A stretch of 64,000 nucleotides of DNA from an uncultured bacterium (GTDB lineage: Bacteria > Cyanobacteriota > Vampirovibrionia > Gastranaerophilales > Gastranaerophilaceae): contig CACYTP010000003.1 of NCBI GenBank assembly GCA_902777385.1, positions 1-64,000 on the forward strand, written 5' to 3'. Positions 5,575-25,904 of this stretch are shown piece by piece. Position 1 is the first letter of the stretch. Every line of letters starts with the position of its first letter. The notes below the pieces were generated by a model, which worked only from the letters and a program-made list of their open reading frames with translations, was not told where the DNA came from and made no database searches. The position numbers and the translations under genes are program-made.

Positions 5575-6077
5575 AGTTTGGAACTATAACTTCGATTAAT
5601 CCTCTGACCGCAAGAGCAAGAGTCCAATTCGCAGAAGATGGGATGAATTCGTATTGGCTAGCAGTCCTGCAAAACAGAACGTTGAACGATAAATTTTATT
5701 CTATGCCGACCGTAGGTGAACAAGTTGCGTGTCTTATGGATGAAAATTCAGAAGAAGGTGTGATTCTTGGTTCTATCTATACATCAGAGGATACTCCTGT
5801 TATTGAAACCGAAAAACAATATTCTGCAAATTTTGAAGATGGCACTTTTGCCAATGTCGATAAAGAGACTCAAACGCTCACTCTTTCATTCCCTAATATA
5901 CATTTGATCGGAAATATTACTCACGAGGGAACTCTTTCAAACACAGACGGCATAATTTCTCAGGCAGACATTACAGATAAAAAATCATCAATGCAAGTAA
6001 TGAGAGATATTTATAATCCGCACAAGCACACAGGAAATCAGGGAAGTCCAACTTCCACACCAGATCAGGAAATGTAA
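5568..6077 (+). CDS. Baseplate assembly protein V, tail spike (GpV)
   Basis: A 169-residue protein with an OB-fold start (FGTITSINPLTARARVQF) and MPTVGEQVACLMDENSEEGVILGS near residues 44-67. The C-terminus ends in HKHTGNQGSPTSTPDQ. That beta-helical tip with an HxH pair is typical of P2 gpV / Mu gp45 spikes, which bind iron at the apex and pierce the outer membrane. This implies a diderm host. The RBS (TTTGGAGG) lies inside the hub gene. Confidence 0.87.
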   Translation: MLKFGTITSINPLTARARVQFAEDGMNSYWLAVLQNRTLNDKFYSMPTVGEQVACLMDENSEEGVILGSIYTSEDTPVIETEKQYSANFEDGTFANVDKETQTLTLSFPNIHLIGNITHEGTLSNTDGIISQADITDKKSSMQVMRDIYNPHKHTGNQGSPTSTPDQEM

Positions 6078-10042: not shown

Positions 10043-10567
10043 ATGGAAATTATAAATTTAGTCACAAATGAAGTTAATCAAAATGATTACCACTTCAACA
10101 AATTTACTCAAAATAAAATAGGAATTTTATACATAGCTCCGATAAATATCGTACCATACGATTGTTTAGCTTGTGATGGTTACGTTCTAAAAATTATTGA
10201 TTATAAAAAGTTATATTCAGTTATAGGTACTTTTTTTAATCAAGGCACAGAAGAGTCTGACGAATTTAGAATACCTGATTACAACATCTCAAAAAGGTTT
10301 CTTCAACCGGGAAAAGATGTTGGAACAATATATAATGCAGGACTCCCCAATATTTGGGGAGAATTCAATCTCGGAGATTCCAATAATGTTTGGGGAAGTG
10401 GTGCCTTTTATGCAACGGGAAGTGGTAATTGGAGGAACGGAGGAGGATCTTCTTCCTCTGAAAGATATATCGGATTCAATGCATCTCGTTGTTCAGGAAT
10501 TTATGGATCATCCTCAACAGTTCAACCACCCTCACAAATTGTACATTACTGTATCAAATATAAATAA
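10043..10567 (+). CDS. Tail-collar domain protein, paralogue 1 of 4
   Basis: 174 residues. The N-terminal 95 residues hold a phage tail-collar domain (IGILYIAPINIVPYDCLACD, EFRIPDYNISKRFLQPG). The centre is a Gly/Ser/Asn-rich stretch unique to this copy, and the C-terminus ends GSSSTVQPPSQIVHYCIKYK, nearly shared with the other three. Upstream there is only a weak RBS. Likely role: adhesive fibre tip or receptor-binding subunit, with the centre as the exposed variable part. Confidence 0.72.
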   Translation: MEIINLVTNEVNQNDYHFNKFTQNKIGILYIAPINIVPYDCLACDGYVLKIIDYKKLYSVIGTFFNQGTEESDEFRIPDYNISKRFLQPGKDVGTIYNAGLPNIWGEFNLGDSNNVWGSGAFYATGSGNWRNGGGSSSSERYIGFNASRCSGIYGSSSTVQPPSQIVHYCIKYK

Positions 10568-10572
10568 GAAAA

Positions 10573-11073
10573 ATGGAAATTTTAAATCTAATATCTAATC
10601 AATTAAATCAAAATGGTTATTCAAAAAATATGCAAACCAAAGGAAAAATAGGAGCTATTTATATATTCCCTACCTATTATACCCCTGATGATTGTTTTGC
10701 TTGTGAAGGCTATTCTCTATTAATTGTAGATTATCAAGATCTGTACAACGTTGTTGGAACAAAATTTAATAAAACTGACGATCCTGAAGGAACTTTTAGA
10801 ATTCCAGATTACAACTTAACAAAAAGATTTTTACAACCGGGAACAGAAGTTGGAACTCAAATTGAAGCAGGATTACCCGATCATAATCATACAGTTACAG
10901 CTTTTTGGTGGGATGGTTCAGGTGTTGCTGAAGAAGGAAGAGGAAATCCAGATTATGGACACCACCGAGTTCTTACAACAAATAATGCTTCAGCAAGTAA
11001 TGGAATATATGGAGGATCAACAACAGTTCAACCTCCATCGCAGATTGTACATCTTTGCATTAAATACAAGTAG
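10573..11073 (+). CDS. Tail-collar domain protein, paralogue 2 of 4
   Basis: 166 residues with the same frame: CFACEGYSLLIVDYQDLYNV, FRIPDYNLTKRFLQPG, and an end YGGSTTVQPPSQIVHLCIKYK-like. This copy diverges most in the collar half and has the shortest centre, carrying a His-rich GLPDHNHTV segment that in other fibres binds metal at trimer interfaces. It starts five bases after copy 1 with almost no RBS (TAAGAAAAATGG), so it may rely on reinitiation. Confidence 0.72.
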   Translation: MEILNLISNQLNQNGYSKNMQTKGKIGAIYIFPTYYTPDDCFACEGYSLLIVDYQDLYNVVGTKFNKTDDPEGTFRIPDYNLTKRFLQPGTEVGTQIEAGLPDHNHTVTAFWWDGSGVAEEGRGNPDYGHHRVLTTNNASASNGIYGGSTTVQPPSQIVHLCIKYK

Positions 11074-11080
11074 GTAAATA

Positions 11081-11611
11081 ATGAAAGTTAAAAGTATAAA
11101 AACAAATACTCTAAATCAGAATAATTACAATACTAATAAATTCACCCCAGATCAGGTTGGTTCTCTTGTTGTTTATCCTGTCGATTATACACACGAAAAC
11201 ACTTTATCCTGTGACGGATATGTCCTTTTAATTGACGATTACCCTTTGCTTTATTCTGTAATCGGCAAAAAATTTAATACAGGTTCAGAAACTGAAACCG
11301 AATTTAGAATACCTGATTACAACATAACAGGAAATTTTTTACAACCCGGCACTAATGTGGGAAATAAGATTAATGCAGGTCTCCCAAACATTTCAGGATA
11401 TTTTACTGGTGGAAATAATTATTCAGGTTGCATTGCCGGAGGAGCATTTACATATCGAGGTGATACAGGATCTGTTAATCCCGGAAACGGTCGTTCTTAT
11501 GGAGATAAACAATATAACTTTAATGCATCGAATTCAAATTCTTTATATGGCAAATCTTCAACAGTACAACCACCATCTCAGATTGTGCATGTATGCATCA
11601 GATATAAGTAG
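11081..11611 (+). CDS. Tail-collar domain protein, paralogue 3 of 4
   Basis: 176 residues. The collar half is closest to copy 4 (NTLNQNNYNTNKFTPDQVGS, YPVDYTHENTLSCDGYVLLI). The centre is a Gly/Asn-rich stretch (GGNNYSGCIAGGAFTYRGD) unrelated to the others, before the conserved C-terminus. The short junction TAGGTAAATAATG is repeated in front of copy 4, as expected from recent tandem duplication. Confidence 0.72.
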   Translation: MKVKSIKTNTLNQNNYNTNKFTPDQVGSLVVYPVDYTHENTLSCDGYVLLIDDYPLLYSVIGKKFNTGSETETEFRIPDYNITGNFLQPGTNVGNKINAGLPNISGYFTGGNNYSGCIAGGAFTYRGDTGSVNPGNGRSYGDKQYNFNASNSNSLYGKSSTVQPPSQIVHVCIRYK

Positions 11612-11618
11612 GTAAATA

Positions 11619-12155
11619 ATGGAAATTAAAAATATAAAAACAAATACCCTAAACCAAAATAGCTACACTATAAATAGACTAACTCCCGATCAGATTGGAT
11701 CTCTTATCATCTACCCAGTTAGTTATACTCATGAAAACACTTTACCCTGTGATGGCTATGTACTTTTAATAGAAGATTATCAATTACTTTATTCAGTAAT
11801 TGGCAAGCAATTTAATACAGGATCAGAACAAGAAAATGAATTTAGAATACCTGACTATAATATTTCCGGTCGTTTTCTTCAACCTAGTTCTAGTCCTGTA
11901 ACTAAAAAAGAGGCTGGTTTACCTAATATTACAGGTCAATGGCACAACGTTGGAGTTGAGCCGGGAGCAGCAGGAGTTAGTGGTGCAATTGTAAATCACA
12001 ATTGGGGAGGAAGTTTTTACTACCACGCAAGCGGTCGTGGTGGCAACTTGGGAGGTTTTGACCTTAATGCATCAAGAAGTTCAGGAGTTTATGGTGCATC
12101 TTCAACCGTTCAACCGCCATCACAGGGCGTTCATGTATGTATTCGTTATAAATAA
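11619..12155 (+). CDS. Tail-collar domain protein, paralogue 4 of 4
   Basis: 178 residues. N-terminal collar domain nearly matches copy 3 (YPVSYTHENTLPCDGYVLLI). The centre (GQWHNVGVEPGAAGVSGAIV, HNWGGSFYYHASGRGG) is again unique. The end is VYGASSTVQPPSQGVHVCIRYK-like. It is the last of the array and is followed by the endolysin gene after an AAGGAG site. Confidence 0.72.
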   Translation: MEIKNIKTNTLNQNSYTINRLTPDQIGSLIIYPVSYTHENTLPCDGYVLLIEDYQLLYSVIGKQFNTGSEQENEFRIPDYNISGRFLQPSSSPVTKKEAGLPNITGQWHNVGVEPGAAGVSGAIVNHNWGGSFYYHASGRGGNLGGFDLNASRSSGVYGASSTVQPPSQGVHVCIRYK

Positions 12156-17313: not shown

Positions 17314-17390
17314 ATTTAATACCTCCTTAATCTCAATAATAATGTAAAAAAAATCCCAATGCAATTAACATTGAGATATAGAAGTGATGT

Positions 17391-17699
17391 TTAACTTGTT
17401 TTATTAAGCCTTTTCTGCTTTTTTAAGTGATTAGAGATAATTCTATAAATTTGTCTTTGAGATAAATCACATTCAATTGCCAATCGGTTAATTGTGAATC
17501 TTGAGCCGTCATATTCATTGATTACATACGTTTCTTTTAATTTTTTGAGTGAGTTTTTTGGAATATAAATACTTAATCCGGCTAAAAGGAATATCAACAT
17601 CAGTGCATGTTTTATCCCTGCCTTTTCAGCAATGTATCTTAAATCTTCATTTGGCATATCTTTATGTGATACTTTTTCCATCCATGGCTCGAATTGCAT
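17391..17699 (-). CDS. Mor/C-type transcription activator
   Basis: 102 residues with the Mor family layout: dimerisation part LRYIAEKAGIKHALMLIFLL, then LSIYIPKNSLKK, then a helix-turn-helix FTINRLAIECDLSQRQIYRI. In Mu, Mor switches on the middle promoter that leads to late transcription, so this protein probably activates a phage promoter. Its start codon lies 14 bases after a hammerhead ribozyme (17714-17778), with GAGGAG between as RBS. Confidence 0.82.
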   Translation of the reverse strand: MQFEPWMEKVSHKDMPNEDLRYIAEKAGIKHALMLIFLLAGLSIYIPKNSLKKLKETYVINEYDGSRFTINRLAIECDLSQRQIYRIISNHLKKQKRLNKTS

Positions 17700-17713
17700 A
17701 CTTCTCCTCTTAT

Positions 17714-17778
17714 GGTCTCATCAGTTGGAGCACTACTCCAAGACGAGCAGATTGCACTGTTATCCGCTCGTTTCGACC
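17714..17778 (-). ncRNA. Type II hammerhead self-cleaving ribozyme, upstream of Mor-like gene
   Basis: Read on the minus strand: GGTC, GAA, stem III ACGAGC/GCTCGT, then C at the cleavage site (GTC), stem I TTGGAG-TAGTG-CTCCAA, the core CTGATGA, then GACC closing a 4-bp stem II with GGTC. Every invariant core base is present, and the open helix is stem II, hence type II. Predicted cut between 17742 and 17741. It starts five bases after the upstream stop codon and ends 14 bases before the next start. Stems differ from the copy at 18108 by compensatory changes. Confidence 0.93.
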
Positions 17779-17783
17779 TGATA

Positions 17784-18089
17784 TTAATATTTGTTTTTAG
17801 GAATAAATTTTTCTTCTGGAGAATCTGATTTGTGCTCTAATAAGTGTAATAAAAGAGAAATTTCATCTTTGACAGAGTTTGCACATTCATAACTTACCAA
17901 TAATTCAACAATTTCATCCCAGTCACTTGATGTTTCACTATAATCAAGTAATCCAATTCCTTCAGTTGTACTAATTTTATGGTTTTTAATAAATAATTCT
18001 GCTATCGCAATTTTTGAGCAATAGATATCTTCATCAGCCTGATCTAATCGTTCTTTTAGTAGTTTCCTAAAATCATCATTTTTTTTCAT
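17784..18089 (-). CDS. Unknown small early phage protein between two ribozymes
   Basis: 101 residues, acidic and helical (KLLKERLDQADEDIYCSKIA, SSDWDEIVELLVSYECANSV). No family recognised. It is bracketed by hammerhead ribozymes at 18108-18167 (upstream) and 17714-17778 (downstream), so cleavage at both would release it as a monocistronic RNA. Confidence 0.6.
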   Translation of the reverse strand: MKKNDDFRKLLKERLDQADEDIYCSKIAIAELFIKNHKISTTEGIGLLDYSETSSDWDEIVELLVSYECANSVKDEISLLLHLLEHKSDSPEEKFIPKNKY

Positions 18090-18107
18090 CTTTCTAATCC
18101 TATATTT

Positions 18108-18167
18108 GGTCTCATCAGTTAACGCCTTACGTTAAGACGGTCAGCACGCAAGCCGACCGTTTCGACC
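18108..18167 (-). ncRNA. Type II hammerhead self-cleaving ribozyme, second copy
   Basis: Minus strand: GGTC, GAA, stem III ACGGTC/GACCGT (extendable by GGC/GCT), C at the cleavage site, stem I TTAACG-TAAGG-CGTTAA, core CTGATGA, GACC. All catalytic core positions match the consensus; predicted cut between 18136 and 18135. Compared with the copy at 17714, stem I and stem III sequences differ but pair perfectly in both. It starts five bases after the stop of 18173-18514 and ends 18 bases before the ATG at 18089. Confidence 0.93.
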
Positions 18168-18172
18168 TGTCA

Positions 18173-18514
18173 TTACATGGAATGTGGAGGGGTAAACATA
18201 CATTCAAAGTCGTTTTCTAATTTTGAAAGAATAGCCATTTGACCTTCAATAACCTTACAATCAACTTCTCTCTCGTATTTTCCACTCCAATTATCCTTTT
18301 CCAAGGCTACGTCGGCATATCTTAATTTTGCTTCCCTTAAATCTTCTTCAAGAATAAGCATTTGGTTTTTAATTAACCCAATAACCGCACATTCCGGCAT
18401 TTCGTTCATTTTTTTAGGTGTAGCTGTCATTTCAGAATCCATTGATTCTTTCATTGAATTTTCCATTGTGTCTTGCATTGGCATAGACATTTCCATTGTT
18501 TTTTCTTCTTGCAT
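18173..18514 (-). CDS. Unknown small early phage protein, Met-rich N-terminus
   Basis: 113 residues. The first 40 are unusually rich in Met, Glu and Ser (MEMSMPMQDTMENSMKESMD); the rest is helical (IKNQMLILEEDLREAKLRYA, VIEGQMAILSKLENDFECMF) and may form a coiled coil. No family recognised. AAGGAG precedes the start. A hammerhead ribozyme follows its stop. Confidence 0.55.
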   Translation of the reverse strand: MQEEKTMEMSMPMQDTMENSMKESMDSEMTATPKKMNEMPECAVIGLIKNQMLILEEDLREAKLRYADVALEKDNWSGKYEREVDCKVIEGQMAILSKLENDFECMFTPPHSM

Positions 18515-18540: not shown

Positions 18541-18987
18541 CTAGAGAGCGGCCGCACTCTTTTCTAATTTTTGTTTAATTGCTTTTATAGCTTGGATTAC
18601 TTTAATTGCCTTAGTTTTAGTAAGGAAATTAATGTCATCTACTTTAAATTTTGTTTTTAAGAATTTTCTTAGAGATTTATTAGCGAATTCGTTATTATCG
18701 AAATAACAAATCTCTCTCCATAAACCCTTTATCATTCTTAATTGTGGTGGGGTTGCCATTTTACTGTCTCGATTCAAGTCCTCATAAGGTTTAGGCATTC
18801 TTTTCCATAGATTCCGTTCTTCAGCTCTTGTTTCTAAAATATCAAGCATTACAGATGCTTCTGTAAAAGTTAAATCTTTAGAAGAACAAACTCCAAAAGA
18901 CATCAGCATTTCACGATAAAGATCATCGTCTAAACCGAGTAATGACTTTAAAATATGAATTCTTTTAATCTGTGAAGGTGTAGCCAT
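18541..18987 (-). CDS. GemA/gp16-like protein (DUF1018)
   Basis: 148 residues. TPSQIKRIHILKSLLGLDDD near the start, then LYREMLMSFGVCSSKDLTFT and ATPPQLRMIKGLWREIC, match the phage GemA/gp16 family (DUF1018). In Mu, GemA affects host DNA gyrase and gene expression. The gene lies between the B-like gene and Mor, as in Mu. Its start overlaps the end of the 58-residue gene upstream. Confidence 0.8.
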   Translation of the reverse strand: MATPSQIKRIHILKSLLGLDDDLYREMLMSFGVCSSKDLTFTEASVMLDILETRAEERNLWKRMPKPYEDLNRDSKMATPPQLRMIKGLWREICYFDNNEFANKSLRKFLKTKFKVDDINFLTKTKAIKVIQAIKAIKQKLEKSAAAL

Positions 18988-19153: not shown

Positions 19154-20032
19154 CTATGCCATCAGCATTTTTGAAGTTTGTTTAATCACAGTAGAATCGA
19201 CCTTTTCAATGCCATTAAATTTGGCAATGCTAATACTGTGAGTAATTAAATGTTCTAACTTTCTTGTATTTCCATCAGAATAGAAAAGAAAAGTTTCTGC
19301 TAAATCAGGATCTAATCCTGCCGCATTTAAAATTTTTGTTACATCTTGAATGAGCAATCTATCAAGTAATTTGTGATATTTCACTCTTGAATAAAGTTGA
19401 TCATATTGATTGTTATAACCTCGCAAATTCTCAAATAAAACATTTCTTCCTACTAGCAGAACTCCAATCCCTGTTTTATCGTGAATTCTGCGTGTAATTT
19501 CTAACGCTCTATATGGCAAATTTTCTGCCTCATCTACTATTAATAATCTGCCTGAATTATTTAATTTATTTACTACTTCATTCATTAAGTCATAAGCACA
19601 GCCTTTACCTGAAAGACCGAGTCTTTTATGAATTTCAAGAAGTAAAGATTTGGCTGTATATCCTGAATCGCTTTCTATTAAAATTGCATCTAAAAAGTTT
19701 TTCGTATATTCTTTTACAGCCACAGTTTTACCGAGTCCTGCTCTGCCGGCACAAACACCAATCTTGCCTTTCGTATGACAAAGTCTGCCGATTTCTGAAA
19801 TATACCTGTTAATTGAAATATCCACAAATGGAATTTCATCATTATTACGTTCTTTTTCTCTTTGAATAAAATTGTTTATTCTATCTGTAATACGGGAATT
19901 GTCACCTTTATAAGTGCCGTTAATCCACATACTTACGGTTGATTTTGCTACACCAATGGCAGTGGCTACAAAATTCACAGATAATCCTTTTGATTCCATT
20001 AAGGTTTTTAAATCATTTCTAATATCCGCCAT
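19154..20032 (-). CDS. MuB-like transposition ATPase with N-terminal HTH
   Basis: 292 residues. N-terminal helix-turn-helix (LSVNFVATAIGVAKSTVSMW) near residues 17-37, Walker A GRAGLGKT near 98, Walker B RLLIVDEAE near 165, and an AAA+ C-terminal lid with SDGNTRKLEHLI. This is the MuB layout: DNA-binding ATPase that chooses targets and stimulates the transposase. It overlaps the end of the transposase gene by 14 bases with AAGGAG inside that gene. Confidence 0.88.
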   Translation of the reverse strand: MADIRNDLKTLMESKGLSVNFVATAIGVAKSTVSMWINGTYKGDNSRITDRINNFIQREKERNNDEIPFVDISINRYISEIGRLCHTKGKIGVCAGRAGLGKTVAVKEYTKNFLDAILIESDSGYTAKSLLLEIHKRLGLSGKGCAYDLMNEVVNKLNNSGRLLIVDEAENLPYRALEITRRIHDKTGIGVLLVGRNVLFENLRGYNNQYDQLYSRVKYHKLLDRLLIQDVTKILNAAGLDPDLAETFLFYSDGNTRKLEHLITHSISIAKFNGIEKVDSTVIKQTSKMLMA

Positions 20033-21989
20033 TAGCGACTCCTTTCAATTCTTCATCAAGAATTAAATCTGTTTCAAATAAATACAAATCCTCTTCTTTT
20101 TGTGTCTCATCAGGCATAAACATTGTTAAATCGTTCTTGCCAAATGCTTCCATATCTTTGTTTTTTCGTATTGCTTTATCCATTGGGGTGTTAGCAATAA
20201 TAGTAACTTTTGGTTTTGATTCCTTCTCTTTTTTGGCATATGCCAATTTATAGTTATTGCATTGCTCTTCAATAGGAATCATTTCTAAATTATCCAAGTA
20301 AGCCTTTGTCAGTTTTAAACTATGCTTTTTAATAGCCAAAGCATCTTTAAATTCTTCTTTTGAGACTTCATTTGCGTGTAGTGCGGCAACTGCTTTTACT
20401 GCTGTGCACTTTCCTAAAAATTCATCATTATCTAATCTAAATACCCACGCTTCTTTGTAATTTTCAGGATCTCTGCGGAGATAAACTTTAACAGACATCT
20501 GTGAAATCATCCAATCTGCCCAATAAGTAATTTCTAATTGGCGATCCTTAATACCATTTCTAGCAATAGTAAAATTGCGTGAAGTTCTTGTGCAGAAAAG
20601 TTTTAATGCCTCACGAGTTGGTTTAATGATTTCATTAAACTCATTATCAAAAAGCTCATCAGGGCTTAATCCATTGTGATTTTTACCATCAGATGGTTTT
20701 TTATTTAAAACATTAATAATATAGTCATTAAATACTGTTTTAAATCTTTCAAAATCATAAATTTTATTTGTCTTTATTTCTTGAGCAAGACGTTCAGGTC
20801 TTTCTACAACATTTCCACCTCTATAACCATATACGTGTTTAGACAGGATTTCTTTTAATTTTAGAAAATCTCTTTCTATTGGTTTTGTTTGAGCGTTATA
20901 TGGCAAAGCAAAATGCACATTTACATTTAATTCATCAAGCATTGATGAAGTTTTATTTGTATCATTTTGAATTTTAATTTTTTCTATTTTTCTGCCGCCG
21001 GCAAAATCTTTGCATCGATAATCCTTACCGTTATCAATAATTACATCTTCAGGTAAACCAAACTTTTCTGCCGCATAATAAAATGCCTGAAATATTCTGT
21101 CGGAATTAGGACTTCCACATTGTAAAATCCAACCTAACCATTTCCCTGATTTGTAATCTCTCCAAGCAGTAACCCAAGGAAATACTACATTCCCTTCTGG
21201 ATCAAATACCGCCACATCAATTTGTGCGTGGTCTGATACCCAAACTTTTCCGCAGGATATTGTCGAATAATCTCTTTCAATATAGTTTTCAAATTTTCTT
21301 TTATAAGCCGATGCACCATATCTTGCAAGATATATAGCTTGAACAGGCATTTCTTTTTCTAATCTTCTTTTAAATGCCATGTGACTTGGGAATGTGCATT
21401 TATCAATAGTTGAATCGATTGATAAAGCGTGTCCCAATGTTTGGTCTCGACAAGATCTTAACGAAGGAGCACCCTCAACTAAATATAAATTCTTAAAATA
21501 ATCAAAATCGGCTTGTTTTACGGTCGAACGATTCAAACCATTTGAACCGTAGTTTGCTAATAAACCGTTTATACCGTATTTATTATATCTTTTTCTCATT
21601 TTTATAATAGATGAATAAGATGTTTGAAAATTAGTATGGGTGAGGTTAAAATTGGCAACAAAATCCCTCAATGCCGAACCTTTCAGCTTTAATGATGCTT
21701 TTATAATAGGCAAATATTTATCCGCTTGAGCTTTTGCCCAATTTGGAACTTCTGAATATTTCTTATCAGAAAATTTGCTAGTAAATCCTTTAATAAAAAG
21801 TTCGGGTAATGAATCCTTATTGATAAAATAATTACTCTTATTGCCGTTTTTAATAATTTTGTAATTTAGTTGATTTAAATAACATTTATTTTTTAATGTT
21901 TTATAACTGATATTTAATAATTCACACGCAGTTTTAGCATCAACCCAAGATGCTTGTTGGCTGTTCATGTTCAGCTCTGTCATAATCAT
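20019..21989 (-). CDS. MuA-like DDE transposase (phage)
   Basis: 656 residues. N-terminal DNA-binding part (WVDAKTACELLNISYKTLKN), a second helical domain, then the RNase H-like core with DDE residues in VWVSDHAQIDV, EDVIIDNGKDY and NAQTKPIERDFLKLKE. A beta-barrel and a charged C-terminus that would contact the ATPase follow. It cuts and joins phage ends during integration and replication. The start at 21989 has AAAGG upstream and overlaps the HTH gene by 50 bases. Confidence 0.9.
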   Translation of the reverse strand: MIMTELNMNSQQASWVDAKTACELLNISYKTLKNKCYLNQLNYKIIKNGNKSNYFINKDSLPELFIKGFTSKFSDKKYSEVPNWAKAQADKYLPIIKASLKLKGSALRDFVANFNLTHTNFQTSYSSIIKMRKRYNKYGINGLLANYGSNGLNRSTVKQADFDYFKNLYLVEGAPSLRSCRDQTLGHALSIDSTIDKCTFPSHMAFKRRLEKEMPVQAIYLARYGASAYKRKFENYIERDYSTISCGKVWVSDHAQIDVAVFDPEGNVVFPWVTAWRDYKSGKWLGWILQCGSPNSDRIFQAFYYAAEKFGLPEDVIIDNGKDYRCKDFAGGRKIEKIKIQNDTNKTSSMLDELNVNVHFALPYNAQTKPIERDFLKLKEILSKHVYGYRGGNVVERPERLAQEIKTNKIYDFERFKTVFNDYIINVLNKKPSDGKNHNGLSPDELFDNEFNEIIKPTREALKLFCTRTSRNFTIARNGIKDRQLEITYWADWMISQMSVKVYLRRDPENYKEAWVFRLDNDEFLGKCTAVKAVAALHANEVSKEEFKDALAIKKHSLKLTKAYLDNLEMIPIEEQCNNYKLAYAKKEKESKPKVTIIANTPMDKAIRKNKDMEAFGKNDLTMFMPDETQKEEDLYLFETDLILDEELKGVANGGY

Positions 21990-22531: not shown

Positions 22532-23224
22532 TTAACAAATGTTAAGCAAATTTTGTTTTAAATCAGTATATAAATACTCGTATTCTCTGTCTTTTCGCCA
22601 TATATATTCCGATAATCTATGAAACATATATGATTCGTTAACATTGTGACTTTCTACTCTTCTTAAAAAACTATATGTGATTGAGAGTTTTCTTATGTCT
22701 GATTTTGAATAATTTTTCTCTTTTTTACCTCTCAAAATTTTATCAGTTACAAAAACGTAGTTATTATAAACATAAAAAAATGCATTCTTATCATAAAACT
22801 GACGGTATCGTGCAATTTGTGGCTTTTCAAAAAAATGTTTTTTCAATTCTTTTAATTGCCTTTCATACAACATTCTCCTAAAAATCAAATAGTAATTACA
22901 AATGCAACTTTTATTAAGCCTTAATAATATTGCAACTTTTTGAGGTGGAATTTCTAAACAAAAACTTTTCATAATAATTTCTTTTTCGTAATCTTCCCTA
23001 AATTCAAACATTGTTTCGATTCTTTTGGTTTCAATTCTTTTTTGTTTAAGATTTTTAGCTGAAAGGTACACAACTAAATCTCCATTTATAGAAATCGCAC
23101 CTTCATTTTTTAATTCTGATATGCATTTTTTTATTATATTAGTATCAATTTCTAGAATTGAAACTAATTCGTTAAGCGTAGTTTTTTTGAGCCGGCGGCA
23201 TAATTTTAATACTTGGTCTTTCAT
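22532..23224 (-). CDS. Winged-helix DNA-binding protein, third gene of transposition module
   Basis: 230 residues. An N-terminal winged helix (KKTTLNELVSILEIDTNIIK, ISELKNEGAISINGDLVVYL), then a second HTH-like region (LEIPPQKVAILLRLNKSCIC) and a basic aromatic C-terminus. It starts 53 bases inside the ATPase gene, so the three genes form one unit. Its position matches accessory targeting factors (TniQ/TnsD), but I see no zinc motifs and no DDE, so the role is open. Confidence 0.55.
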   Translation of the reverse strand: MKDQVLKLCRRLKKTTLNELVSILEIDTNIIKKCISELKNEGAISINGDLVVYLSAKNLKQKRIETKRIETMFEFREDYEKEIIMKSFCLEIPPQKVAILLRLNKSCICNYYLIFRRMLYERQLKELKKHFFEKPQIARYRQFYDKNAFFYVYNNYVFVTDKILRGKKEKNYSKSDIRKLSITYSFLRRVESHNVNESYMFHRLSEYIWRKDREYEYLYTDLKQNLLNIC

Positions 23225-23906
23225 TGAACCTTCCTTTCAATATTTCTTCTGTTATTACATTAAATTTATTAGTTCTTGCTTGTTTTTCCAACTGTTCCAA
23301 AGTCTGAACAATTTTTCTGAACTGGTTGGTGCGTGTTGCAAGATATGTTATTGCATCTTCACTAAATTCAAGATCTGTTATTTGATTAAGAATATCTCTT
23401 AAATCTTCTTCGTTATAATGTTCAAACCTTAACTTTTTAAATAATCTATCGTCAAAATGTTTTAATCTTGATATTTTTTTATCAACGAATCCCATTCCTG
23501 AAAGTATAATTGGCGAACCTGTGTTATCTTGAATATCTCTTAAAATTTCAATGGCATTTTTATAACCAAATAAATAATCAACTTCATCAACTATAATAAT
23601 TTTAGGATTAAATCTTAATTGCTTTAAAATTGCATTAAAATTATCTTGCATACTAAAATAAGGATTTATTTCCAACTCCTCCATAATCAGTTTTAATAAA
23701 CCATTTTGAGTAATATCATTATTTGCTCTAATATAAATGGCATCATTTTTCGTAGCCCACCATAATAATGTTTTAGTTTTACCTATTCCATGGTCACCGT
23801 AAACAAGTGCTAGTTTTGGAATATTTGGCGGAAGTTTTTTTAAATCTTCCATTAGTCCGACAAACTTTTTGACGTTTTTTGTTTTAACAAATACATTTGC
23901 TTTCAT
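23172..23906 (-). CDS. AAA+ transposition ATPase (MuB/TniB/TnsC type)
   Basis: 244 residues: Walker A YGDHGIGKTKTLLWW near residue 40, Walker B PKIIIVDEVDYLFG near 112, sensor-type SPIILSGMGFVDKK, and an arginine-rich lid. No N-terminal HTH, unlike the phage ATPase at 19154, so the two are distinct. It starts three bases after the transposase stop. It should recruit target DNA for the 664-residue transposase. Confidence 0.85.
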   Translation of the reverse strand: MKANVFVKTKNVKKFVGLMEDLKKLPPNIPKLALVYGDHGIGKTKTLLWWATKNDAIYIRANNDITQNGLLKLIMEELEINPYFSMQDNFNAILKQLRFNPKIIIVDEVDYLFGYKNAIEILRDIQDNTGSPIILSGMGFVDKKISRLKHFDDRLFKKLRFEHYNEEDLRDILNQITDLEFSEDAITYLATRTNQFRKIVQTLEQLEKQARTNKFNVITEEILKGRFNERPSIKIMPPAQKNYA

Positions 23907-23909
23907 CTG

Positions 23910-25904
23910 CTACCCTCCATATAAGTTGTAGTATTCATCACTTCTAATATAATTTGCGAGCCATTTCCTATCTTCAGGATTGGTGCATCCGTTATTTATT
24001 AACCACTCGTATTTTTCAAAATCAGAATCAAACATAGGTTTATTCATCTGTTTTTCACGAGGGGTTAATTTATGTTCACGAACAGTTTTTTCAGGTTCAA
24101 ATTGTTCAATTTCAAGTGCCGGTTCAGGAGCAACATCTAAAACCTGAAGTTCCTCTTTTGGGAATGTTTTCTTTATTCGTTTTACTAATCTATTCTTAAT
24201 TTTTTGTTGCTTTTCATATTGATACTTGTATTCTTCCATATCTTTTACTGTTCCAAGAACACGAGCCATAGGGTGTACTTTTTGAACTCTGTGAGCAACA
24301 CATAAAAACTCCCCTTTTGTGGAATATACGTTAACTTTTGATAAATCAAACAGACTGTATCTAATATTTACTTTATCCCGGATTCCAAGAATTGCCTCGC
24401 TTCTGTAATGCATATTTAAGAATGTAATTCCATGTTTATTAATTGTTCTGCCTTCGGTTTTCATCATCAAATCATCGAGTCTTTGAACATCAATATTTTG
24501 TTTTTGAACGCTATTTAAACACTCTTTGATTGTTTTATTTCTATCGTTCGGGCAGGGTTGATTATTATGAAATTCAATCCAACTATTAATATATTTACTT
24601 GCTTCCGAAACTGTCGGAATATGATTATTAGTTAATTTTTGATGCCATTGTGCGTGGAGTTTTTCACCTCTTTTTAACCACGCCGGCTTATCTTCAATTG
24701 AAGTTCCAATGTAGCTCGGCATTCCTTTTTCAAGTTCTTCTTGAAATTCCCGGAAAAATCTTTCTATTACTTTGGCTCTTGCATTGTATGGTTTTGCAAA
24801 AACTGAATGTATATTTAAGTTTGCATAAACTCCGTTAAACAAATCTTCTTCAAAGTCTACATTTTGGAAGAATCGAGATTTGAAAGCTTTTCCGTTATCC
24901 TGATAGACAACTTTCGGAATTAAACCTAAATTTATAATTGCATTTCTTAAAGCTGATGCAATACATTGAGTGCTTTCAGTCATCATAATTTCATATCCGA
25001 CAAGTGCTGTTGATTTCCAATCTAAAAAACCGACAAGAGTTGCTCTTGTCGGTCTGCCGGTGAATGGATTTATAACTTGAAAGTTTAGAACGTGTCCGTC
25101 TGCGACTAATACATCCCCAACTTCAATTTTGGAAATATCTCTTTCAATATATGGTTCAACTTTATCGTGGTATGCTTTCATACCTTCTCGTCTCAAAACC
25201 CACTCTGCGTAGTTGTTTTTTCTGAAGTTCTCTGCATATCTTTTAAATGATAAATCGCAGGGAAGAGATTCATAACCTCGTTTTTTTAATATCTCTTTTG
25301 TTAATTTAATTGCTTTCCCATAATTATATTTGCTTGGGTGAAGTAATAAGGTTAATAATATTTGCCGCATCTCATCATTCAGAATTGAATTATACTCTCC
25401 CTGTTTTGTATATTTATAATTTGGTTGTAAACATTCCGCACATTCATGCTTTTCATATTTCCTTAACCAACGGTGGAGAGTTCCAATAGAAATTGCTCCA
25501 ATAAATCGATATGCTTTTGGAAGATATAACCCTGAGTTATATAAATCCAAAAAATCAGAATCAGCTTGTTTTTTAGTCGTATATTTTTTTCTGAATTTAA
25601 TTAATGCCAACACAATATTTATTCTAAAATTCGCAGTAATTTTTGCATTATCTGATACAAACTGCTGTGGCTGATAATTTAATGGAACAAGTTCCGTAGA
25701 TTTATTTTCATGCTTTCTTAATTTATCCTGAAGTTCAGGTTCTAAACTTGAAAACAATATTTCATAACTCGTGCCGCCATTAACCTGAACCTCTCTTGAG
25801 ATATATTTGCTTTCGGTTTTATTTAATTCCAAACGAAGTGATCGGGTACTTTTTAAACCCTTGGCTTCTGCTACATCTTTTATATTTATATATATATTAT
25901 TCAT
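23910..25904 (-). CDS. Mu-type DDE transposase (second module)
   Basis: 664 residues. Helical DNA-binding N-terminus, integrase core with DDE residues in GDVLVADGHVLNF, PKVVYQDNGKAF and ARAKVIERFFREFQEE, then a Mu-type C-terminal barrel. The last 40 residues (PMFDSDFEKYEWLINNG, EDRKWLANYIRSDEYYNLYG) are typical of MuA-family ends that bind the ATPase. GAGGTAAT precedes the ATG. Similarity to the phage transposase at 20019 seems limited to the fold. Confidence 0.88.
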   Translation of the reverse strand: MNNIYINIKDVAEAKGLKSTRSLRLELNKTESKYISREVQVNGGTSYEILFSSLEPELQDKLRKHENKSTELVPLNYQPQQFVSDNAKITANFRINIVLALIKFRKKYTTKKQADSDFLDLYNSGLYLPKAYRFIGAISIGTLHRWLRKYEKHECAECLQPNYKYTKQGEYNSILNDEMRQILLTLLLHPSKYNYGKAIKLTKEILKKRGYESLPCDLSFKRYAENFRKNNYAEWVLRREGMKAYHDKVEPYIERDISKIEVGDVLVADGHVLNFQVINPFTGRPTRATLVGFLDWKSTALVGYEIMMTESTQCIASALRNAIINLGLIPKVVYQDNGKAFKSRFFQNVDFEEDLFNGVYANLNIHSVFAKPYNARAKVIERFFREFQEELEKGMPSYIGTSIEDKPAWLKRGEKLHAQWHQKLTNNHIPTVSEASKYINSWIEFHNNQPCPNDRNKTIKECLNSVQKQNIDVQRLDDLMMKTEGRTINKHGITFLNMHYRSEAILGIRDKVNIRYSLFDLSKVNVYSTKGEFLCVAHRVQKVHPMARVLGTVKDMEEYKYQYEKQQKIKNRLVKRIKKTFPKEELQVLDVAPEPALEIEQFEPEKTVREHKLTPREKQMNKPMFDSDFEKYEWLINNGCTNPEDRKWLANYIRSDEYYNLYGG

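Follow-up and report, generated by a model that had tools for sequence, protein, structure and literature searches.

What does a self-cleaving RNA do directly in front of the gene for a phage late transcription activator? The question arises in the window, by which we mean the whole 64,000-nucleotide stretch of DNA analysed here, where two hammerhead motifs, HH1 and HH2, lie in a block of phage-like early genes on the minus strand. The features of this block are:

17353..17377, minus strand: terminator-like hairpin with a U run, just 3' of mor
17391..17699, minus strand: mor-like late transcription activator, 102 aa (PF08765)
17700..17713, minus strand: spacer from HH2 to the mor start, with Shine-Dalgarno-like GAGGAG at 17709-17704
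17714..17778, minus strand: HH2, the mor-proximal ribozyme (type II hammerhead), with a predicted cut at 17742/17741
17784..18089, minus strand: 101-aa ORF between the two ribozymes, variable cassette gene
18108..18167, minus strand: HH1, the other type II hammerhead, with a predicted cut at 18136/18135
18173..18514, minus strand: 113-aa ORF upstream of HH1, conserved small early protein
18541..18987, minus strand: GemA-like protein (Mu gp16; PF06252)
19154..20032, minus strand: MuB-like AAA protein (MuB-like ATPase)
20019..21989, minus strand: MuA-like transposase (PF02914)

In the direction of transcription, the order is MuA-like, MuB-like, GemA, 113-aa ORF, HH1, 101-aa ORF, HH2, Mor and the terminator-like hairpin. 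Since a MuA-like transposase, a MuB-like ATPase, GemA and Mor are encoded together on one strand, the element is, by its gene content, a Mu-like prophage, and its host is a gut bacterium of the Gastranaerophilales. The predicted product of 17391..17699 matched PF08765 (E = 7e-7, 29.6 bits versus a cut-off of 24.9) and the PHROG "late transcriptional activator" (E = 4e-11), and its assignment as Mor-like is sound. The GemA-like protein had no match among named phages. The early operon of phage Mu (NC_000929) has the same order of transposase, B, gemA and mor, but there gemA runs into mor with a 4-nt overlap in the annotation, whereas two small genes and the ribozymes lie between them in the window. 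Just upstream of the early block, at 23172-25904, a second transposase-like protein (Mu-transpos_C, rve) is encoded beside a TniB/AAA protein. Elsewhere, at 10043-12155, four similar ORFs of 166-178 aa lie in tandem; the two that were tested carry a Phage Tail Collar domain, and the four are probably duplicated tail-fibre genes.

Read directly on the minus strand from 17778 to 17714, HH2 consists of GGTC-GAAA-CGAGC...GCTCG-TC^TTGGAG-TAGTG-CTCCAA-CTGATGA-GACC, where the stretch between GAAA and TC^TTGGAG is CGAGCGGATAACAGTGCAATCTGCTCG. Three stems surround C3UGANGA9, G12AA14, A15.1-U16.1 and H17, and the core is canonical throughout: C3 U4 G5 A6 N7 G8 A9, G12 A13 A14, A15.1-U16.1 and H17 = C, with C17 at 17742 and N1.1 at 17741. 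HH1 has the same core and stem II, with TTAACG/CGTTAA as stem I and CGGTC/GACCG as stem III. In both motifs, stems I and III are closed by loops and the open helix is stem II; since this 4-bp stem is the open one, the topology of HH2 is the type II (GSC) permutation. The minimum-free-energy RNA fold coincides with this structure for both HH2 and HH1 (z = -3.3 and -3.6). The direct reading thus bears out the claim of the earlier note that the two copies share a core and a 4-bp stem II while stems I and III differ and remain fully paired. By sequence and structure HH2 is a perfect type II hammerhead ribozyme, and self-cleavage 3' of H17 is predicted.

Could such a motif be a chance or inactive look-alike hairpin? 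In 7,242 simulated windows with the dinucleotide frequencies of the real one, a strict type II descriptor (stems of at least 4/6/6 bp) matched once, and a loose type II descriptor 61 times; the real window holds two strict matches. A chance origin of HH2 and HH1 is excluded. An alignment of 31 distinct related hammerhead sequences combined an invariant core with compensatory stem changes, as befits hammerheads: 98.8% of its pair cells were paired (73.7% when shuffled), 16 of the 19 pairs showed changes on both sides, these both-sided changes filled 126 cells versus 29.4 in shuffled data, and pairing fell to 29-44% in slid versions of the alignment. Covariation had been argued earlier from the two copies of the window, which by themselves are thin evidence; with 31 distinct sequences the evidence becomes overwhelming. 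One observation in favour of a look-alike is that an Rfam search of the window gave no hammerhead match at HH2 or HH1, at the gathering cut-off or with E up to 10. Set against it are the rarity of strict matches in simulated windows, the stem covariation and the synteny with mor, and the miss itself is consistent with an absent pseudoknot. A look-alike is therefore extremely improbable.

The Rfam miss points to the way in which this family departs from known type II hammerheads, most of which have been described with a pseudoknot (PMC3088659). The gathering cut-off of RF02276 (Hammerhead_II) was not reached at the HH2 locus; a weak match of 31.4 bits (cut-off 37) occurred in one other genome, G271, at a ribozyme away from mor. 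At least four Watson-Crick pairs between loop I and the 3' tail were possible in 5 of 54 cases, versus 7.0 expected from permuted tails. Since this complementarity is no higher than in permuted tails, a pseudoknot of loop I with the 3' tail is ruled out as a general feature of the mor-linked hammerheads. Loop I mostly has the sequence UNANG; of 50 cases, all have an A immediately 5' of stem II and 44 have one immediately 3' of it. In place of the pseudoknot, this loop and the flanking A may make a non-Watson-Crick contact, and Rfam probably misses the family because the pseudoknot is absent and another loop I contact is used. About ten distinct sequences, with stems intact, carry an extra U directly after CUGAUGA (L051, L069, L087, L095, L113/L142, L115/L143, L141/L158 and L154); these are possibly a natural variant of the hammerhead core.

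We then asked how firmly the ribozyme is tied to mor. An exact pattern of core plus stem II matched 8 IMG/VR contigs, 28 of 383 family genomes and, in GTDB genomes, 41 contig stretches, mostly of Gastranaerophilales. Host-family genomes, 288 in all, were scanned with a covariance model built from the 31 sequences and, independently, for Mor proteins. There, 55 of 63 ribozyme matches had a Mor gene at most 700 nt downstream on their own strand; this fraction comes from a model built on pattern-selected loci, hence biased to the mor-linked subfamily, and from sequences many of which are close relatives. Seen from the protein, 23 of 25 close Mor homologues had a ribozyme directly upstream (at most 160 nt), even where the preceding gene differed. 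The same held in more divergent prophages: Mu Gam (PF07352) or another ORF precedes the ribozyme, stem II is GTCC/GGAC or GACC/GGTC, and a Mor-like gene still follows. More distant Mor genes, including two others in the window's own genome, mostly had no ribozyme. Among IMG/VR Mor contigs, all six at 34% identity or more had the ribozyme and the 25 at 32% or less did not; a search of IMG/VR with the GTCC/GGAC stem II pattern found nothing. The placement of a hammerhead directly before the Mor-like start, as first described for the window, thus recurs across many genomes. One of the close homologues without a ribozyme, L108, carries in the same gap, about 65-40 nt ahead of mor, the perfect hairpin AGTGCAGGGAA/TTCCCTGCACT, perhaps an alternative mark of this boundary. 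In the same bacterial family, type II hammerheads that are related to these but have other stem II sequences lie beside non-mor genes (L149, L150, L151, L152, L153 and L154).

The position within this gap is narrowly set. In 49 cases, the distance from the end of the upstream stop codon to the ribozyme ranged from -1 to 18 nt (median 2). The Mor start lies 14-32 nt 3' of the ribozyme, for a predicted 5'-OH leader of 42-60 nt. In the window, 14 nt containing GAGGAG separate the end of HH2 from the mor ATG at 17699, and the predicted cut would leave a leader of 42 nt (17741-17700). These coordinates agree with the predicted cut site, the gap with its ribosome-binding site and the leader length given in the earlier note. 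A simple occlusion switch is unlikely, because the Shine-Dalgarno-like stretch is unpaired in the predicted fold. A regulated switch of another kind would have HH2 cleavage controlled by a factor or RNA on the stem III loop, or by ribosomes that terminate at the nearby upstream stop codon and cover GGUC-GAAA, and Mor would thereby be timed. The loop (11 nt, UAACRGUGCAA; about 17752-17762 in the window) fits this idea in that 23 of 26 unique mor-proximal copies retain it, compared with 4 of 13 upstream copies (Fisher p = 5e-4), while the stem beneath it varies; the close stop codon also fits. However, such spacing is ordinary for compact phage genomes, a nearby search found no conserved complement to the loop, L077 carries the long loop on its other copy and L085 has a different loop. 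We therefore consider a regulated switch unlikely. The same low standing is given to its wider form, in which regulated HH2 cleavage would set the amount of Mor and the timing of late genes and the ribozyme blocks would double as joints for cassette exchange. The role in timing the early-to-late switch that had been proposed for HH2 is possible but unsupported: a ribozyme that cleaves constitutively would process the transcript and time nothing, and two of the 25 close Mor homologues do without a ribozyme.

Processing of the early transcript is the reading we favour: HH2 and HH1 probably cut the early transcript into separate hairpin-capped mRNAs, so that the mor message is protected and uncoupled from the upstream genes. 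No promoter-like site was found on the minus strand from 18838 to the mor start, in a scan that phage-specific promoters would escape, and mor RNA therefore probably runs through both ribozymes. HH2 would self-cleave this polycistronic transcript between the preceding small gene and mor, and HH1 would do so one gene earlier. Hammerhead cleavage leaves a cyclic phosphate on the upstream product and a 5'-OH on the downstream one. Here, the 3' end of the upstream product would be the stem III hairpin bearing a 2',3'-cyclic phosphate, and the downstream product would start, with a 5'-OH, in the stem I hairpin itself; with stem II open and the cut placed between hairpins III and I, both would be hairpin-capped. 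The predicted products are a separate mor mRNA of about 395 nt (from 17741 to the terminator near 17350) and a separate cassette mRNA of 394 nt. The mor message would be shielded from 5'-end-dependent decay by its hairpin-capped 5'-OH end, and its expression would be uncoupled from that of the upstream genes. The tight fit between the stop codon and the mor start, the terminator just 3' of mor and the persistence of the ribozyme with mor where the upstream gene is Mu Gam all support processing. Many related viruses share the arrangement, so that cleavage of the viral message into distinct pieces is probable. Tandem prophage hammerheads cut at the expected places in vitro, and a triple set cut in E. 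coli (PMC3088659). Against this reading, a ribozyme is missing at two of the 25 close Mor homologues and at most of the distant ones. Direct observation covers sequence, structure, covariation, placement, conservation and host gene content, whereas we infer that the RNA is cleaved in the cell, what its ends are, that the message is stabilised and that the lytic programme benefits.

Whether the cut would stabilise or destabilise the mor message depends on the decay enzymes of the host. RNase E/G is present (328 bits), the best match to RNase J reached 24 bits versus a cut-off of 400 bits (one family model, one draft genome), and no RtcB was found in the 99.95% complete genome. A circular RNA made by host RtcB, a further candidate, was ruled out on this last ground. 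The 5'-tethered route of RNase E requires a monophosphate, and 5' hairpins impede end conversion (PMC3997798). A host with RNase E/G and no recognisable RNase J or RtcB favours a protected 5'-OH mor message; the protection is uncertain, since RNase E can also enter 5'-OH RNAs directly (PMC2948425). The opposite outcome, in which loss of the 5' triphosphate on cleavage reduces Mor and makes the lytic switch dependent on strong early transcription, has a precedent in B. subtilis, where RNase J1 degrades the 5'-OH glmS mRNA (PMC3997798). The host RNase J match is below cut-off, however, and the leader opens with a 6-bp hairpin, which makes a destabilising leader quite unlikely. Of the two outcomes left side by side in the earlier note, the enzyme content of the host leans to the protected message.

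Comparison of close relatives revealed a second property of these loci. The window and L003 are 98-99% identical on both sides of a difference in which L003 has neither the 101-aa ORF nor one of the ribozymes (L003 region near 5922-5986, window 17784-18167), and the joint falls inside the shared GGTCGAAACG. In L052 and L067, identical ribozymes with flanks about 98-100% identical enclose different ORFs, and identity resumes two bases before the mor-proximal ribozyme. Together with further pairs of relatives with and without a cassette, these cases indicate that single-gene cassettes are gained, lost and replaced with joints at or beside the ribozymes; most loci, though, have one ribozyme and lack a cassette. 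That the genes between tandem prophage hammerheads vary was already reported (Perreault et al., PMC3088659). Two further ideas were dropped. The cassette ORF is not claimed as a tandem duplicate of the upstream ORF, as the similarity is weak (hhalign probability 31%), and the notion that paired copies keep distinct stems against mispairing or recombination was rejected (same stem I in 4 of 16, versus 3.4 expected).

The gain or loss between the window and L003 and the ORF swap between L052 and L067 could suggest that the ribozymes are kept chiefly as recombination joints of a selfish or exchangeable cassette of ORF plus ribozyme, with RNA cleavage secondary. But any conserved repeat could host such joints, DNA recombination needs neither covarying stems nor an intact catalytic core, most loci carry one ribozyme and lack a cassette, and the stems of paired copies are no more alike than expected. 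We regard this explanation as very unlikely, and processing of the early transcript remains our preferred reading.

Type II hammerheads, their tandem copies flanking prophage genes and their association with Mu-like phages are already known (PMC3088659, PMC10085705, PMC6155905). The family described here shares the core, the type II topology and the tandem copies flanking prophage genes with the bacterial and prophage hammerheads of Perreault et al. 2011 (PMC3088659; RF02276), and presumed phage-transcript processing is common to both. It differs in lying below the Rfam threshold, with no excess of loop I/3'-tail pairs over permuted ones, and in its UNANG loop I, invariant A 5' of stem II and fixed position before mor. 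The association of hammerhead and twister ribozymes with Mu-like phages (PMC10085705) likewise places hammerheads beside Mu-like early genes, whereas the linkage here is to one gene, mor, which earlier lists may also name. HHphage of haloviruses HF1 and HF2 (PMC3088659) is also found upstream of a start codon, at 13 nt, but has a core insertion near C3, a helicase gene and an archaeal host. The glmS ribozyme (PMC3997798) is another self-cleaving bacterial 5' leader RNA that leaves a 5'-OH; it has another fold, depends on a ligand and leads to decay via RNase J1, which the window's host apparently lacks. A literature search found nothing that names both "hammerhead ribozyme" and "Mor transcription activator"; the primary Mu-association papers were outside its scope. 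The fixed linkage to mor, the pseudoknot-less form missed by Rfam, the cassette joints at ribozymes, the extra core U and the mor-proximal stem III loop are new, though parts may be in that primary literature.

The role of prophage hammerheads is still called open (PMC6155905, PMC10085705). Here, type II hammerheads of a family overlooked by the standard Rfam model are tied, across many related prophages, to a single gene whose role is probable, that of the late activator. Natural comparisons are offered by Mor genes that lack a ribozyme, by nearly identical phages that differ in carrying the cassette, and by variants of the core. Thus, with the linkage to mor and these comparisons at hand, the role of a prophage hammerhead becomes directly testable.
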